Source: Desulfosporosinus youngiae DSM 17734 | GTDB taxonomy: Bacteria > Bacillota > Desulfitobacteriia > Desulfitobacteriales > Desulfitobacteriaceae | NCBI RefSeq assembly: GCF_000244895.1 | Contig: NZ_CM001441.1 | Location: 2,748,226 to 2,812,225 of the forward strand | Length of the DNA stretch: 64,000 nucleotides | Reading direction: 5' to 3' | In this document: positions 5,025 through 49,670 of the stretch, in pieces | Numbering within the stretch: the stretch's first letter is position 1 | Layout: every line of letters starts with the position of its first letter | Program-made: the position numbers and the translations under genes | Notes under the pieces: model-generated | What the model was told of the DNA's origin: nothing | What the model saw: the letters and a program-made list of their open reading frames with translations, nothing else | Databases searched by the model: none

Positions 5025-6047
5025 TTGAGACTTAAGAGCAATGACTACTTTAGATTGAAAATAATTGCGCTGGTCTGCTTTACCATAGCGTTGTTTTTTG
5101 GATCGTTTTTGGTTGGACGATTTGCAATATCCCCCCTAACGGTTTTGCACATCATCCTTTCTAAATTCGCCGATATACCGCAGTACTGGGACACTACCCT
5201 CGATACGGTTGTTATGCAGGTGCGTCTGCCCAGGATTGTGCTTGGAATTTTAGTCGGGGGAGCTCTCTCGGTTGCCGGAGCTTCATATCAGACGCTGTTT
5301 AAAAATCCGATGGTATCTCCCGATATTTTAGGGGTTTCGGCAGGAGCAGCCTTTGGTGCGGCGCTGGCCATGATCAACAATGCCTCTTGGTGGCAGATCC
5401 AGCTGCTGGCTTTTCTTTTTGGGATTATCGCCGTAGCGGCCGCCTATACGATTGCTTATGTATTTGGAGGGAATACAATTACCGTGCTCATTTTGGCGGG
5501 GATTGTTGTTTCGAGCTTGTTTCAGTCGTTGCTCTCCATTGTAAAAACCCTGGCCGATACAGATAACGCGCTGCCGACCATTACTTATTGGCTGATGGGC
5601 AGTTTGGGCAAGGGCAAAAACGAGGATGTCTTAGTCATGCTGCCGACTCTGGCCCTATCCCTTTTCATGATCTATATTTTTCGCAGTCAGATCAATGTGT
5701 TGGCGGCGGGAGAAGATGAGGCGCGCACGATGGGAGTCAATGTTCCTTTGGTGAAGCTGGTAGTTGTTATCAGTTCGACGCTGATGACGGTCTCGGCAGT
5801 CAGTATTTGCGGGATTGTCGGCTGGGTTGGCATGGTCGTGCCGCATATTGCCCGAATGCTTACCGGAGCAAGTTTTTCTAAGCTGGCGGTTACTTCGTTT
5901 TTCATTGGCGGAACATTTTTGCTGATAATCGACAATGTTATTCGGGGGATCGAAGGGGTTGAACTGCCGCTTGGCGTGCTCACTGCTTTGGTTGGCACTC
6001 CAGTCTTCGTGCTATTGCTGTCCAGAGTCAGGAAAGGGTGGTCGTAG
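5025..6047 (+). CDS. FecCD/BtuC-type ABC importer permease
   Basis: A 340-residue, very hydrophobic protein with the spacing of the 9-10 helix FecCD/BtuC family, including the typical RLPRIVLGILVGGALSVAG entry and the cytoplasmic coupling region GVNVPLVK. It would form the membrane channel of a type II importer. The start is TTG at 5025 with AAGGAGA about 10 bases upstream. Homologues carry siderophores, cobalamin, or molybdate/tungstate (MolB of Haemophilus is of this type). The Moco riboswitch and neighbours favour molybdate or tungstate. It overlaps the ATPase gene. Confidence 0.85.
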   Translation: MRLKSNDYFRLKIIALVCFTIALFFGSFLVGRFAISPLTVLHIILSKFADIPQYWDTTLDTVVMQVRLPRIVLGILVGGALSVAGASYQTLFKNPMVSPDILGVSAGAAFGAALAMINNASWWQIQLLAFLFGIIAVAAAYTIAYVFGGNTITVLILAGIVVSSLFQSLLSIVKTLADTDNALPTITYWLMGSLGKGKNEDVLVMLPTLALSLFMIYIFRSQINVLAAGEDEARTMGVNVPLVKLVVVISSTLMTVSAVSICGIVGWVGMVVPHIARMLTGASFSKLAVTSFFIGGTFLLIIDNVIRGIEGVELPLGVLTALVGTPVFVLLLSRVRKGWS

Positions 6048-24502: not shown

Positions 24503-25419
24503 TGGACTTCGCAGTCGGGTTGGCCCGGTGTCCGGGAACATGTGGAGAATGGGTACAAGGGGCTCGAAAAGGAGTACCATTTCTGATAGATTGTCCCATT
24601 GACCGATTTTCGGAGGCCAGGGTAGCATTGAGTTTTGATGCTGCTGGCTGGGATCTTCCTTTAAATAAAACTAAAGCACTCCAGGTTTTAGAATTACTTA
24701 AGGAAAGCTTAGGCCTTCCGCAATTGGGGGGCAAGGTGGAATTCTCTCATCAGCTTCCGGAAGGAAAAGGGATGGCTAGCTCCACGGCTGACATTACAGC
24801 GGTTGCGGCGGCCGCTCTGATGGCTCTTGGGGAAGACCCGGCACCGGAACGCTTGGCACAGTTTGCTTTGCAGATTGAACCAAGCGACAGCGTGATGTTT
24901 CCCGGAATCACGGAGATCGAACATGTTCAGGGGCATAAGCATCGCTGGCTGGGATCGTCTGTACCTGCCCTGTTTCTGGCTTTGGATTGGGGCGGCATCA
25001 TTGATACGAGAGCATTCAACGCCCGGCCAGGGTTGGCAGAACACTATCGCCGTCATGAGAGTGACATTGAACGGGCCTATAAATTAGCCTGCGAAGGAAT
25101 AGAGCAGGGGGATTTGGAAAAACTGGCGACGGCAGGGACCATCAGCGCAAGGTGCAATCTGGAAGTCAATCACAAGCCGCTCTTTGAACCTTTCCTGACC
25201 TGGGTTCGGCAAAAAGGCGGACTCGGTGTGGTGACTGCTCATAGCGGCACCTTATTAGCCGGGGTATTTCCGCAAACCAGCGTTTTTAGTCTTGAAGCCC
25301 GCAAGAAATTACGGCTTGAAGCCCAGCAGCGGTTTTCGCCTGCTTACCTCGATCTTTTTCATAGTCATTCAGGAGGAATTGTCACAGCTGAATCTGAAAC
25401 AACTGAGAATACGGGGTGA
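24502..25419 (+). CDS. pduX: L-threonine kinase (PduX-like GHMP kinase)
   Basis: PduX phosphorylates L-threonine, the substrate of CobD in the synthesis of aminopropanol phosphate. The 305-residue protein has the GHMP kinase phosphate loop LPEGKGMASSTADI (about 88-101) and starts with ARCPGTCGEWVQG, typical of PduX. The C-terminal VTAHSGTLLAGVF segment fits the family. ATG 24502 overlaps the cobO stop. Placement between cobO and cobD strongly supports the assignment. Confidence 0.9.
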   Translation: MDFAVGLARCPGTCGEWVQGARKGVPFLIDCPIDRFSEARVALSFDAAGWDLPLNKTKALQVLELLKESLGLPQLGGKVEFSHQLPEGKGMASSTADITAVAAAALMALGEDPAPERLAQFALQIEPSDSVMFPGITEIEHVQGHKHRWLGSSVPALFLALDWGGIIDTRAFNARPGLAEHYRRHESDIERAYKLACEGIEQGDLEKLATAGTISARCNLEVNHKPLFEPFLTWVRQKGGLGVVTAHSGTLLAGVFPQTSVFSLEARKKLRLEAQQRFSPAYLDLFHSHSGGIVTAESETTENTG

Positions 25420-25424
25420 TACTT

Positions 25425-26543
25425 ATGCATGGCGGAAATCTCCGCAGAGCCCAGGAATTGTATGGACTGGACTCCTTTATCGACCTCTCCGCAAATATTA
25501 ATCCGTTTGGACCCCCATCAGGGGTTTGGACTTCTTTACAAAAAGCTATGGCAGATATCGTCAATTATCCGGACCCGGAAAGCTTAGCCTTGCGCAAAAC
25601 CCTTTCCCGCCGCTTGGGTCAGCCCCTCGAATGGATTATGGCGGGTAATGGGGCAGGGGAATTGATATTTACGATTCTGCAGGCCTTGAAGCCTCAAAAG
25701 GTGGTTATTCCGATTCCAACCTTTAGTGAATATGAACGGGCTGCGCGAGCGGTTGGGTCTGAAATAGAGTATATTCCTCTTGGCCCTGAAGGGTGGGCAA
25801 GGTTTGGCCGAAGGGATGGGGTAAAGGAAAACCCTGATTATGAGCAGGATAACGACCAGCTGTGGCGTAAACTCCTTAAAGGGTGTGAGCTGCTCTTTCT
25901 CTGTTCCCCTCATAATCCCACAGGGAGCGTCCTTGAGACAGAAACCTTCGAACGAATTTTGAGATTAACGAAAGAGATAGGGTGTAAAATCCTCTTCGAT
26001 GAGTCGTTCTTTGATTTTCTGCCGGATGAGTATCGCAAGTCATCCCGTGACTATTTGGCAGCTAACGAACATCTCCTTGTTTTATACTCTTTAACGAAGT
26101 TTTTTAGTCTGCCAGGTTTGCGTTTAGGTGCGGTATTTGCCCATCCATCGTTGCTTGCGGCATGTGAGAGATATCGTGACCCTTGGTCCGTTAATGTTTT
26201 GGCTCAACAGGCAGGGATAGCGGCGCTGGAGGATTTGAAATATCCTGAGGATGTACGAAATAAGTTGGAAGAGAGCAGATTGTACTTTTATCGGGAATTT
26301 GAGTCATCCAACTTTATGAATTTACGGCTTTGGCCCGCGTCTGTTAATTTTGCTTTAATTGAAGTTTTGAACCGGAAGCCGGGAGACCTAATTGAGCATT
26401 TAGGACGTTCGGGGATTCTTGTCCGGGATTGTGCCAGCTTCGAAGGTCTGCCGGGCAATTTCATACGGGTCGCGATCAAGGATATCCCTGTCATGCAGCG
26501 GTTAATTGAGGGGCTGAGAAATTTCGTATGGGAGCAGGACTAA
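25425..26543 (+). CDS. cobD: L-threonine-O-3-phosphate decarboxylase
   Basis: A pyridoxal-phosphate enzyme of the class I/II aminotransferase fold that makes (R)-1-amino-2-propanol phosphate. From ATG 25425 the protein is 372 residues. It shows DLSANINPFGPP (about 18-29), LCSPHNPTGSV, the cofactor-contacting FDESFFDF and the lysine in YSLTKFFSLPGLRLG (about 225). A GTG at 25416 is an alternative start. It is the last gene of the cobalamin operon; its TAA is the first base triplet of a direct repeat that recurs at 27526. Confidence 0.92.
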   Translation: MHGGNLRRAQELYGLDSFIDLSANINPFGPPSGVWTSLQKAMADIVNYPDPESLALRKTLSRRLGQPLEWIMAGNGAGELIFTILQALKPQKVVIPIPTFSEYERAARAVGSEIEYIPLGPEGWARFGRRDGVKENPDYEQDNDQLWRKLLKGCELLFLCSPHNPTGSVLETETFERILRLTKEIGCKILFDESFFDFLPDEYRKSSRDYLAANEHLLVLYSLTKFFSLPGLRLGAVFAHPSLLAACERYRDPWSVNVLAQQAGIAALEDLKYPEDVRNKLEESRLYFYREFESSNFMNLRLWPASVNFALIEVLNRKPGDLIEHLGRSGILVRDCASFEGLPGNFIRVAIKDIPVMQRLIEGLRNFVWEQD

Positions 26544-26606
26544 GCGTTAATCCTAATCTAGTTAAATAGTATCAAAAAGCACTTCCTGAAAGGAGGTGCT
26601 TTTTTG
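26541..26606 (+). repeat. Direct repeat R1 with terminator
   Basis: About 65 bases, starting at the cobD stop codon, recur at 27526-27589 with two substitutions and a one-base gap. The 3' half is an intrinsic terminator: AAAAGCACTTCCT pairs with AGGAGGTGCTTTTTT (26574-26605). Confidence 0.9.
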
Positions 26607-26741
26607 ATCAGAGGTGTAGTACTATTTCAGATTTGACCTGACTTTCGTCTGGCCTAGCATGGAATTATTTTTTATAGAGGGACAATATTGTCTTGAAAAA
26701 GTATAAGTTCTATTGCCAAAATTATATTTGGAACTTAGGAA

Positions 26742-26770
26742 TTGCACCGGTCCTTATGTTGTAGTATGCT
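26742..26770 (+). promoter_or_regulatory. Sigma-A-type promoter for the toxin-antitoxin pair
   Basis: TTGCAC (26742-26747) and TATGCT (26765-26770) with a 17-base spacer lie about 50 bases before the antitoxin start. Confidence 0.5.
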
Positions 26771-26818
26771 AGAGGTAAAGAAAGTAAAGAAGTAAGGACG
26801 TTGAAAGGTGGTTATGTT

Positions 26819-27082
26819 GTGGAAGTATCAAGGATTAGTTCTAAAGGACAGGTAACGATTCCAAAAACAATTCGAGAATTACTAAACTTAAATGAGGGTG
26901 ATCGGGTTGCCTTCATAGAAGATGATGGTAAAGTTGTGATCACTAAGGCAAGTTTAATTGCCTTACGTGAACTACAAGATGCTTTAAGTAAAGATGCTCA
27001 GGAGAAAGGTATCATCGAAGAAGAGCTTCTAAATGAATTAGAAGTAGTTCGGGAGGAAATGTGGAATGAACGGAAAAAGTAA
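26819..27082 (+). CDS. AbrB/MazE-type antitoxin
   Basis: An 87-residue swapped-hairpin (SpoVT-AbrB) DNA-binding protein beginning MEVSRISSKGQVTIPKTIREL from GTG 26819, with GGTGG as ribosome site; TTG 26801 in frame is less likely. The N-terminal half binds DNA; the acidic C-terminal helix (about 50-87) should wrap the toxin. The gene overlaps the PIN gene by 17 bases, the usual antitoxin-first layout, and the pair probably represses its own promoter. Confidence 0.85.
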   Translation: MEVSRISSKGQVTIPKTIRELLNLNEGDRVAFIEDDGKVVITKASLIALRELQDALSKDAQEKGIIEEELLNELEVVREEMWNERKK

Positions 27083-27506
27083 TGCCTTGCGGGTATTTAT
27101 TGATTCCAACATTCTGGTGTCGGCCGTTTTATCTAATTCATCCCTATCCAGTAAACTATTAACTCTAATCATTGAGGAACACCATTTAATCATTTGCAGC
27201 TATTCAATCACTGAGGTCTCCAAAGTCATTAACCGTAAATTTCCTAAGCATATTTCTAAATGGGATAAATTTCTTACCACTCTAGAATTTGAAATAGCCT
27301 ATACGCCCTCAGACTTGTCTACTGTGAGCGTTCCATATATAAGGGATCCAAAGGATATACCCATTTTAGTTTCTGCGATGGTATCCCAACCCGATATTCT
27401 TATCACTGGAGACATGGATTTTCATACTCCGGAAATTCAAGAATTTTTTACGATAATGACTCCGGTTGATTTTCTTAACGCTTTTTCTAGCTACATAAAT
27501 CAGTGA
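27066..27506 (+). CDS. PIN domain toxin (VapC-like ribonuclease)
   Basis: A 146-residue PIN-domain protein. Acidic metal ligands are in FIDSNILVSAV (Asp near residue 13), the central DPKDIPIL (about 98-105) and ITGDMDF (about 116-122). It would cut RNA, possibly tRNA, when free of the antitoxin. ATG 27066 lies inside the antitoxin gene and is preceded by GGAGGAAATGTG. It belongs to the group of putative toxins paired with AbrB antitoxins rather than classical VapB. Confidence 0.83.
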   Translation: MNGKSNALRVFIDSNILVSAVLSNSSLSSKLLTLIIEEHHLIICSYSITEVSKVINRKFPKHISKWDKFLTTLEFEIAYTPSDLSTVSVPYIRDPKDIPILVSAMVSQPDILITGDMDFHTPEIQEFFTIMTPVDFLNAFSSYINQ

Positions 27507-27525
27507 GCTGAAAAATCATTAAGGA

Positions 27526-27589
27526 TAAGCGTAAATCCTAATCTAGCTAAATAGTATCAAAAAGCACTTCCTGAAGGAGGTGCTTTTTT
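27526..27589 (+). repeat. Direct repeat R2 with terminator
   Basis: This is the second copy of the sequence at 26541-26606, with the same hairpin (AAAAGCACTTCCT/AGGAGGTGCTTTTT). The two copies bracket the toxin-antitoxin pair exactly. Confidence 0.9.
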
Positions 27590-27738
27590 AGTTAAGATAC
27601 ATCAATATAAAACAAAAAAATCCATGGGCTAACGGCAGATTTAAGAATAGAATTTATATTACAAAAACAACACTCAAAGAGTAATTCAAGAATCTATACA
27701 ACCAAACGAGATCTGAATAAAAATGAGGAGGAACTTAC

Positions 27739-28542
27739 ATGTTAGTTGTCGGAGAATTAATTAATGCCAGCCGTAAGGCAATTGGAGAAGCCATCAAAGC
27801 ACAAGATGCAGATTATATTCAGAAGGTAGCAAAAGATGAGTTTGAAGCCGGAGCAGACTATATTGATGTCAATGCCGGTATCTTTGTCGGTAAAGAACCC
27901 GAATATCTGCAATGGCTCGTGAAAACAGTTCAGGAAGTCGTCGATGCACCCTGCTGTATTGACAGCCCAGATCCCAAGGCTATCGAGGCAGCTTTATCTA
28001 TACACAAGGGAACAGCCATGATCAACTCCATTTCCCTCGAAAAAGAGCGTTATGATGCCTTAATGCCGGTTGTCGCCGGAACGAACTTGAAAGTTGTAGC
28101 GCTTTGCATGAGTGATGATGGAATGCCGGAAACTATGGATGCCCGCTTAAAAATTGCTGAAAAACTCATTGATGGGCTTGTTAAAAACAATGTGCCCCTG
28201 AGTAACATTTATGTCGATCCCTTAGTTCAGCCAATCTCGGTTAACAGCACCTTTGCGGTTGAATTTATTAATTCAGTTGAAGCCATTATGACCCAGTTTA
28301 AAGGAGTCCATACAATCTGCGGACTTTCTAACGTATCCTATGGTTTGCCGGTGCGGAAATTCATGAATCATGCCTTTGCCATTATGGCTATCGGCAAGGG
28401 GCTGGATGGTTTGATTATTAATCCGCTGGATCAAATGATGATGGCTAGCTTAATTACAGCTGAAGCACTGGCCGGTCGGGATAATTTCTGCGTCAAGTAT
28501 CTGAAAGCATTCCGCAATAAGCAATTTGACTTCTTAGGCTAA
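27739..28542 (+). CDS. Methyltetrahydrofolate:corrinoid methyltransferase (pterin-binding)
   Basis: A 267-residue pterin-binding TIM barrel like AcsE/MtgA and the MtaA-equivalent of acetogens. Landmarks are VVGELINASRKAI at the start, EAGADYIDVNAGIF (about 36-49), PCCIDSPDPKAIEAAL (about 72-88) and the asparagine-rich MINSISLEKERY. It would move the methyl group between the corrinoid protein MtaC and tetrahydrofolate, linking methanol to the Wood-Ljungdahl methyl branch. ATG 27739 follows GAGGAGG. It has its own terminator and is separated from mtaCB by a minus-strand gene. Confidence 0.87.
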   Translation: MLVVGELINASRKAIGEAIKAQDADYIQKVAKDEFEAGADYIDVNAGIFVGKEPEYLQWLVKTVQEVVDAPCCIDSPDPKAIEAALSIHKGTAMINSISLEKERYDALMPVVAGTNLKVVALCMSDDGMPETMDARLKIAEKLIDGLVKNNVPLSNIYVDPLVQPISVNSTFAVEFINSVEAIMTQFKGVHTICGLSNVSYGLPVRKFMNHAFAIMAIGKGLDGLIINPLDQMMMASLITAEALAGRDNFCVKYLKAFRNKQFDFLG

Positions 28543-49348: not shown

Positions 49349-49670
49349 GGGCAGCTTCGTCCACAGAAGCGAACCCATTGCATGGAGAGGCGATAAAAGC
49401 CCACAAGACGGTGCGGGGAAACGGAGCCACGGGTTCACATCAGGTATTACCCGGAGGTTTGGCACGAAAGTGTCCGGTGGACAGTTTCGCCGAAGCGGCA
49501 ATCTCCAAAGAAGACTTATCCGCTGAAGGTAGCTCCCGCACCGGCGAGTGGGCCAGCCTCGGAGTGCTGCGGTACGAAGACACTGTCTTCGCACGAATTA
49601 ACTAATCTTGCACGGATGTGGCGAAGCTGCCCAACCCGGGAGCTGCCCAACCCAAGAAACCTATCCCCTT
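49349..49670 (+). repeat. Interspersed repeat, copy B
   Basis: This is the most complete copy. It has the 5' block (GGCAGCTTC..., GCATGGAGAGGCGATAAAAG near 49380), the central GCCACGGGTTCACATCAGGT (about 49426), the CCGGTGGACAGTTTCGCCGA block (about 49470) that copy C lacks, and the 3' CCTCGGAGTGCTG block (about 49556). A unique 30-base insertion near 49570-49600 contains ACGAAGACACTGTCTTCGCAC. Minus-strand translation gives PDVNPWLRFPAP, shared by the other copies, but no gene is supported. Confidence 0.8.

Follow-up and report, generated by a model that had tools for sequence, protein, structure and literature searches.

The cobD locus and its toxin-antitoxin pair

The window analysed here, a stretch of 64,000 nucleotides from Desulfosporosinus youngiae DSM 17734, contains a cobD-like gene that is followed by two small overlapping genes and, further downstream, by a methyltransferase-like gene (Table 1). 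cobD has one match per genome in 29 of 29 genomes of the genus (E <= 1e-60); the TIGR01140 score of the gene in the window, 286.9 bits, is slightly below the cut-off of 290.55. Of the two small genes the upstream one codes for the antitoxin and overlaps the toxin gene, and each matches its own family profile: PF04014 (MazE_antitoxin) and TIGR01439 (AbrB) for the former, PF13470 (PIN_3) and TIGR00305 for the latter. The AbrB/PIN identification made in an earlier sequence-only reading of this DNA therefore holds. By its organisation and profile matches the pair is a type II toxin-antitoxin module, in which the PIN protein would be the toxin; residues D13, E50, D94 and D116, which we take to be the catalytic acidic residues of the PIN active site, are invariant in all six close relatives aligned. 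The probable promoter of the operon is not among the sites listed by a consensus promoter scan. Downstream of the module, a stretch of the methyltransferase-gene leader (TTAAGATACATCAATATAAAACAAAAAAATCC... in window 27590-27700) is strongly conserved across six relatives and is possibly a promoter or regulatory site.

Table 1. Features of the cobD-methyltransferase locus (window coordinates) and of the loci with repeats of about 69 bp (coordinates of the respective locus)
Feature	Position	Strand	Evidence
cobD (CobD-like; threonine-phosphate decarboxylase family), the gene preceding the insertion site	25416..26543	+	TIGR01140 E=1.9e-85
Direct repeat copy 1: cobD stop codon, spacer, predicted intrinsic terminator hairpin with T-run	26541..26605	+	repeat alignment, genome search, folding
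78 bp of unknown origin, left end of insert	26606..26683	.	genus matches short, chance-level only
54-bp irs-like stretch, inverted arms AAGTTC...GGAACTT	26684..26737	+	87% identity to G008:C7:20275-20329, E=1.9e-11
Probable toxin-antitoxin operon promoter, TTGCAC-17-TATGCT	26742..26770	+	visual inspection; G037 and G042 have a similar sequence in their homologous loci
Iterated GTAAAG element, probable antitoxin operator	26775..26795	+	read by eye; kept in homologous loci; function inferred
AbrB/MazE-type antitoxin; GTG is the likely start codon, the frame being open from 26801	26819..27082	+	PF04014 E=2.1e-13; TIGR01439 E=2.2e-15
PIN_3-family toxin, 146 aa, 17-bp overlap with the antitoxin gene	27066..27506	+	PF13470 E=4.2e-12; TIGR00305
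19-bp spacer, right end of insert	27507..27525	.	sequence
Direct repeat copy 2: predicted terminator hairpin with T-run, now following PIN	27526..27589	+	repeat alignment, genome search, folding
Conserved methyltransferase-gene leader, left edge abuts copy 2 (apparently native right junction)	27590..27738	+	aligned with G026, G018, G017, G021, G006, G003
Methyltetrahydrofolate:corrinoid/iron-sulfur protein methyltransferase-like gene	27739..28542	+	NF005719 E=8.6e-104
Repeats of about 69 bp, L072	5138-5206, 6012-6081, 8855-8922, 9470-9538		
Repeats of about 69 bp, L074	5881-5948, 6746-6815, 7578-7638, 8873-8940		
Repeats of about 69 bp, L073	605-674, 1989-2057, 3000-3068		

A terminator repeat at both borders

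Both borders of the pair carry a long direct repeat that occurs at these two places of the genome only. Copy 1, 65 nt long and beginning with the TAA stop codon of cobD, recurs behind the PIN gene as the 64-nt copy 2, 985 bp beyond copy 1. The sequence-only reading had described 65 bases recurring there with two bases and one gap of difference, and the alignment confirms this: two substitutions and one single-base gap distinguish the copies, which share an unbroken stretch of about 28 bp. Since the copies differ at three places, the event cannot be recent unless they were unlike from the start. A search of the 5,660,978 bases of the genome with copy 1 gave E = 1.0e-35 and 1.8e-22 for the two places; these values, and the restriction to two places, mean that the repeat is neither a chance likeness nor a terminator common throughout the 5.66-Mb genome, an objection which the sequence-only reading had itself raised and which falls away. 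At E <= 0.001 the repeat is absent from all 59 relatives searched; a longer repeat pattern had no match in genome_contigs, and the repeat core had none in viral contigs. Elsewhere in the window, 2240-2455 and 49425-49574 are about 91% alike and lie 47 kb apart.

Two details of the original description stand in part. The repeat had been placed at the cobD stop codon; if a one-base gap is admitted it possibly starts four bases earlier (AGGA-C-TAAGCG against AGGATAAGCG), and the fit to the stop codon is therefore close, not necessarily exact. The pair had been placed exactly between the repeats; it is indeed flanked by them, with no gene besides AbrB and PIN in between, but it does not abut copy 1, the stretch of 26606-26683 intervening.

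Each copy closes with a strong hairpin and a run of six T (-18.1 and -18.7 kcal/mol in copies 1 and 2), and shuffled sequences folded as well in 0 of 200 and 1 of 200 cases, respectively; a generic terminator scan found no terminator-like site in the stretch, though the hairpins and T-runs are plain in the sequence. As either copy could well work as a terminator where it stands, it might be supposed that nothing was inserted and that selection or gene conversion has kept two similar terminators alike. The identity, however, reaches about 33 bp upstream of the hairpin, where no structure is predicted in copy 1, and the repeat pair is absent from relatives; we consider this account highly improbable.

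The cobD-methyltransferase gap in relatives

The 3' flanks of cobD were compared in 28 other genomes of the genus, over up to 1.5 kb each (less in G010 and G011). Neither AbrB nor PIN lies behind cobD in the examined flank of any of the 28, and the methyltransferase gene falls within the flank in six (G026, G018, G017, G021, G006 and G003). Immediately beyond copy 2 the sequence aligns with the methyltransferase-gene leader common to these six relatives. In G026, of the cassette-free relatives with this gene order the closest one, TTTTTAGATAAGATACATC aligns with TTTTTTAGTTAAGATACATC of the window, about 30 bp or less from the G026 cobD stop; in a longer form, this leader junction reads TTTTTAGATAAGATACATCAATATAAAAC in G026 and TTTTTTAGTTAAGATACATCAATATAAAAC in the window. 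The cobD 3' region of G026 holds no recognisable copy of the hairpin.

Likeness to the terminator was judged against 300 shuffles per relative. G018, G017 and G007 scored 46, 45 and 43 against shuffle maxima of 36, 35 and 35, and in the other 25 relatives the cobD 3' score did not exceed its own shuffle maximum. Since a repeat-like terminator follows cobD in these three relatives, the repeat belongs to cobD. Judged from the alignments, both outer junctions (cobD with copy 1, and copy 2 with the leader) look ancestral, so that the insert would consist of the intervening sequence, some 920 bp, and one of the two terminator copies.

How far these comparisons bear out insertion with duplication of the target, the history first suggested from the sequence, can be stated for both of its halves. 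The outer junctions look native, the repeat is not tied to the module elsewhere and the flanks compared are module-free in 28 genomes, all of which speaks for it; the 28 relatives yielded no empty site that holds a single intact repeat, three having a weakly similar single terminator and none an intact copy. Cassette-free genomes with two repeats, named at the outset as evidence to the contrary, were looked for in the same 28 and none was seen. In three relatives (G018, G017 and G021; loci L006, L007 and L011) the gap between cobD and the methyltransferase gene contains unrelated extra sequence of several hundred bp, and the site therefore looks like a recurrent landing place.

The main rival to target duplication is a single-crossover integration, in which a circular or concatemeric donor from a related strain would have brought in the module together with its own version of the cobD terminator region. 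Integration of this kind always leaves direct repeats behind, and the two substitutions and the gap between the copies fit two sources. Yet the repeat is absent from the 59 relatives, the module lies next to cobD in none of the 28 flanks compared, and the sharing begins at the cobD stop or within about five bases of it, where a donor would be expected to share cobD coding sequence too. We rate it as unlikely.

Mobility of the AbrB-PIN module

Relatives of the PIN protein (E <= 1e-20) are present in 11 of the 73 genomes of the order, and a class-wide PIN search yielded no close locus beyond the order-wide set. The PIN proteins of G037 and G042, both from another family, are 81% and 78% identical to that of the window, with CobD 33% identical, whereas in G028, of the same genus, the values are 71% for PIN and 74% for CobD. 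So close a PIN match (81%) across a family border, against a CobD identity of just 33%, indicates that the module is horizontally mobile; the genomes read hold it at a different site.

One of these sites lies between uvrB and uvrA in G024 (Desulfosporosinus sp. Tol-M). The uvrB-uvrA gap is 12-261 bp in the other 27 genus loci read and thus leaves no room for a module. GAGGCCAAT occurs on both sides of the G024 insert, and in G016 and G003 a similar short stretch alone separates the two genes; a 9-bp target duplication is plausible here, but a blind scan rated the flanking match no better than chance, its score of 18 lying below the shuffle p95 of 21. At six other close loci (L069, L070, L071, L039, L082 and L084) no flanking duplication stood out.

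We rejected the idea that the repeat is part of the mobile module, as none of the flanks read at homologous modules contains it. L038 contains no repeat of at least 25 nt and L039 no direct repeat of at least 25 nt; L040 has a 154-nt direct pair (549-702 and 5774-5927) flanking the stretch that holds the module, kilobases away on the left. The flanks of the second PIN_3 gene of the D. youngiae genome gave one 14-nt pair at 86%, judged to be chance. The homologous module of G018 (L040 4805-5156) has kept its antitoxin, and its PIN gene is cut after about 36 residues. Carriage by a phage or plasmid was likewise rejected, the PIN protein being without a match in the plasmid and phage collections and, when searched with its alignment, in the viral contigs.

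A link to Tn3-family transposons

Within 26606-26770, the irs-like stretch alone is convincingly matched in the genus, in G008, with an alignment score of 103 against a shuffle maximum of 69. Just downstream of the match lies a Tn3-family tnpA, followed by a tyrosine-recombinase gene (tnpI), in an element whose terminal repeats are GGGGTAATACCAGCG; the stretch owes its name, a putative resolution site (irs), to its position and symmetry. In G028 a DDE_Tnp_Tn3 tnpA and an integrase-type tnpI adjoin a divergent AbrB-PIN pair, with an irs-like region between them that is weakly similar to that of the window (score 33; shuffle p99 31, maximum 39). The best explanation for these resemblances, a link that the sequence-only reading had missed, would be that the region upstream of the module derives from a TnpI-type Tn3 transposon or that such a transposon and the module have it in common. 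As one close locus alone (G028) adjoins tnpA, the movement may have gone either way: a transposon may have donated the module that now stands alone, or may have acquired it.

Two elements can be delimited in this context. L039 64-5282 is the Tn3-family element of G028 (Desulfosporosinus sp. SbF1), in which AbrB-PIN_3 is divergent from tnpA-tnpI, on a contig that stops before any right terminal repeat. L068 2467-9906 is a TnpI-type Tn3 element with tnpA, a tyrosine recombinase and terminal repeats, the passenger of which is presumably a large P-type ATPase-like gene.

tnpA, tnpI and terminal repeats are present in G008, and in G028 too apart from the unseen right end. The G028 tnpA and tnpI queries had no match in the window, and at E <= 1e-100 that tnpA is unmatched in the whole D. 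youngiae genome. The terminal inverted repeat GGGGTANTACCAGCG... does not occur near the cassette, its best window matches having 8 mismatches and lying elsewhere, which led us to reject the cassette as an intact Tn3 element or as a miniature with G008 or G028 ends. Neither end of the insert gave a significant likeness to transposon flanks, the 78 bp on the left being compared with the sequence that separates tnpA from the irs-like site and the 19-bp spacer on the right with what follows PIN in G028. Canonical Tn3 transposition gives 5-bp duplications and terminal repeats and for that reason does not explain the site.

A longer history can nevertheless be imagined in two steps: a whole Tn3-type transposon carrying the module was inserted, unequal exchange or a tandem duplication doubled the terminator, and tnpA, tnpI and the ends were then lost by deletion. 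The 54 irs-like bp that remain in front of the module and the complete arrangement on one side in G028 accord with such a course. It requires more steps, however, and neither the terminal repeat near the cassette nor any similarity to tnpA or tnpI in the window accompanies it; we hold it to be a rather poor prospect.

Cassette-like repeats near distant AbrB-PIN pairs

Distant AbrB-PIN pairs, about 40% identical, occur in G035, G037, G048 and G052 at or between recurring repeats of about 69 bp. Three or four of these imperfect repeats are found per locus in L072, L073 and L074, between successive genes, and from the sequence such a locus looks like an integron cassette array. If the repeats of the window were recombination sites as well (att or integron attC), the module would be a site-specific gene cassette, and the array-like flanking of the distant pairs lends this some appeal. 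An attC site has RYYYAAC and GTTRRRY ends and folds end to end. There is no attC-type RYYYAAC/GTTRRRY pair at the locus, with 0 candidates in 26401-27800; the repeat of the window does not fold end to end and does not match the model of the ~69-bp repeat; it occurs just twice in the genome, and the tnpI query has no relative in the window. Having failed the motif, folding and repeat-model tests, attC or another cassette site was rejected as the identity of the repeat, and the gene-cassette reading has very little chance of being right.

A probable history of the insertion

We think it probable that the module was inserted at the cobD terminator with duplication of a target of 64-65 bp, and that both target copies now flank it; the simplest history is that about 920 bp came in and a long target was duplicated. 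A type II module consisting of an AbrB-like antitoxin and a PIN ribonuclease-like toxin would have been acquired horizontally, possibly from a Tn3 transposon in which it stood divergently beside tnpA across an irs-like region. The insertion was not a canonical Tn3 transposition, because the ends, the transposase and the resolvase of that transposon are absent here. It is likely that a break at the terminator was repaired with foreign DNA taken up in the process, and that the target was thereby copied twice, either by fill-in of a staggered break or by template switching; the terminator hairpin may have favoured the break. We infer the duplication step, as no clean empty site with one intact repeat is present in the genomes examined. 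This point counts against the favoured history, as do G026, which is without the hairpin, and the 78 bp beside copy 1, which match nothing. The chance-level match in G024, the six close loci without a conspicuous flanking duplication and the three differences between the copies weigh on the same side.

At present copy 1 would still end the cobD operon, and the module would be transcribed from its own probable promoter, next to the operator-like iterations, with copy 2 ending the transcript. The repeats probably let the module be lost again: RecA-type recombination between copies 1 and 2 would delete it and restore the order cobD-terminator-methyltransferase. By E. coli figures, a shared stretch of about 28 bp suffices for slow RecA-dependent exchange.

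The locus also invites a doubtful generalisation, namely that type II pairs leave Tn3-type transposons and spread bare, landing at gene ends by a transposase-independent insertion whose target duplication differs in length from site to site (64 bp behind cobD, perhaps 9 bp between uvrB and uvrA in G024).

Comparison with known systems

Toxin-antitoxin pairs jump between genomes, and the chromosomal entry of solitary ones is usually invisible. The 64-bp border duplication together with the transposon-like stretch offers a concrete, testable footprint of such an entry. Integron toxin-antitoxin cassettes carry direct repeats on both sides of the module, and here too repeats of comparable length flank it; unlike theirs, the repeat of the window fails the attC tests. 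Among the titles and abstract beginnings covered by the literature search we found no long target duplication described at a type II module, which is weak evidence of absence.

Insertion with long, variable target duplication is known for restriction-modification genes (Nobusato et al. 2000, Gene 259:99-108, via PMC3874152, PMC1643837 and PMC3031569). By analogy, the 64-bp duplication on either side of a bare selfish pair of genes would fall under the same pattern. The present case differs in its cargo, apparently a classical type II toxin-antitoxin pair, in its target, a predicted intrinsic terminator, and in that a clean empty allele is not among the 28 relatives.

Tn3-family transposons can carry a toxin-antitoxin operon beside the resolution site, and PIN_3 and PIN toxins as well as an AbrB antitoxin are known among them (Lima-Mendez et al. 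2020, PMC7157771). In the part of that survey available to us, ParE with ParD is the pair found in module-bearing TnpI elements, PIN_3 pairs with RHH_6, and AbrB appears once, with PIN, in TnPsy42 (TnpR). The G028 element differs in tying AbrB with PIN_3 to TnpI, a combination, seen in L039, that is not among the table rows seen of the survey; the window in turn differs from these modules in lacking the transposon itself. ccdO157, named in PMC2654758, is a solitary chromosomal toxin-antitoxin islet. The module studied here resembles it in being a lone chromosomal module that is patchy between strains; at its own borders it has a 64-bp duplication.
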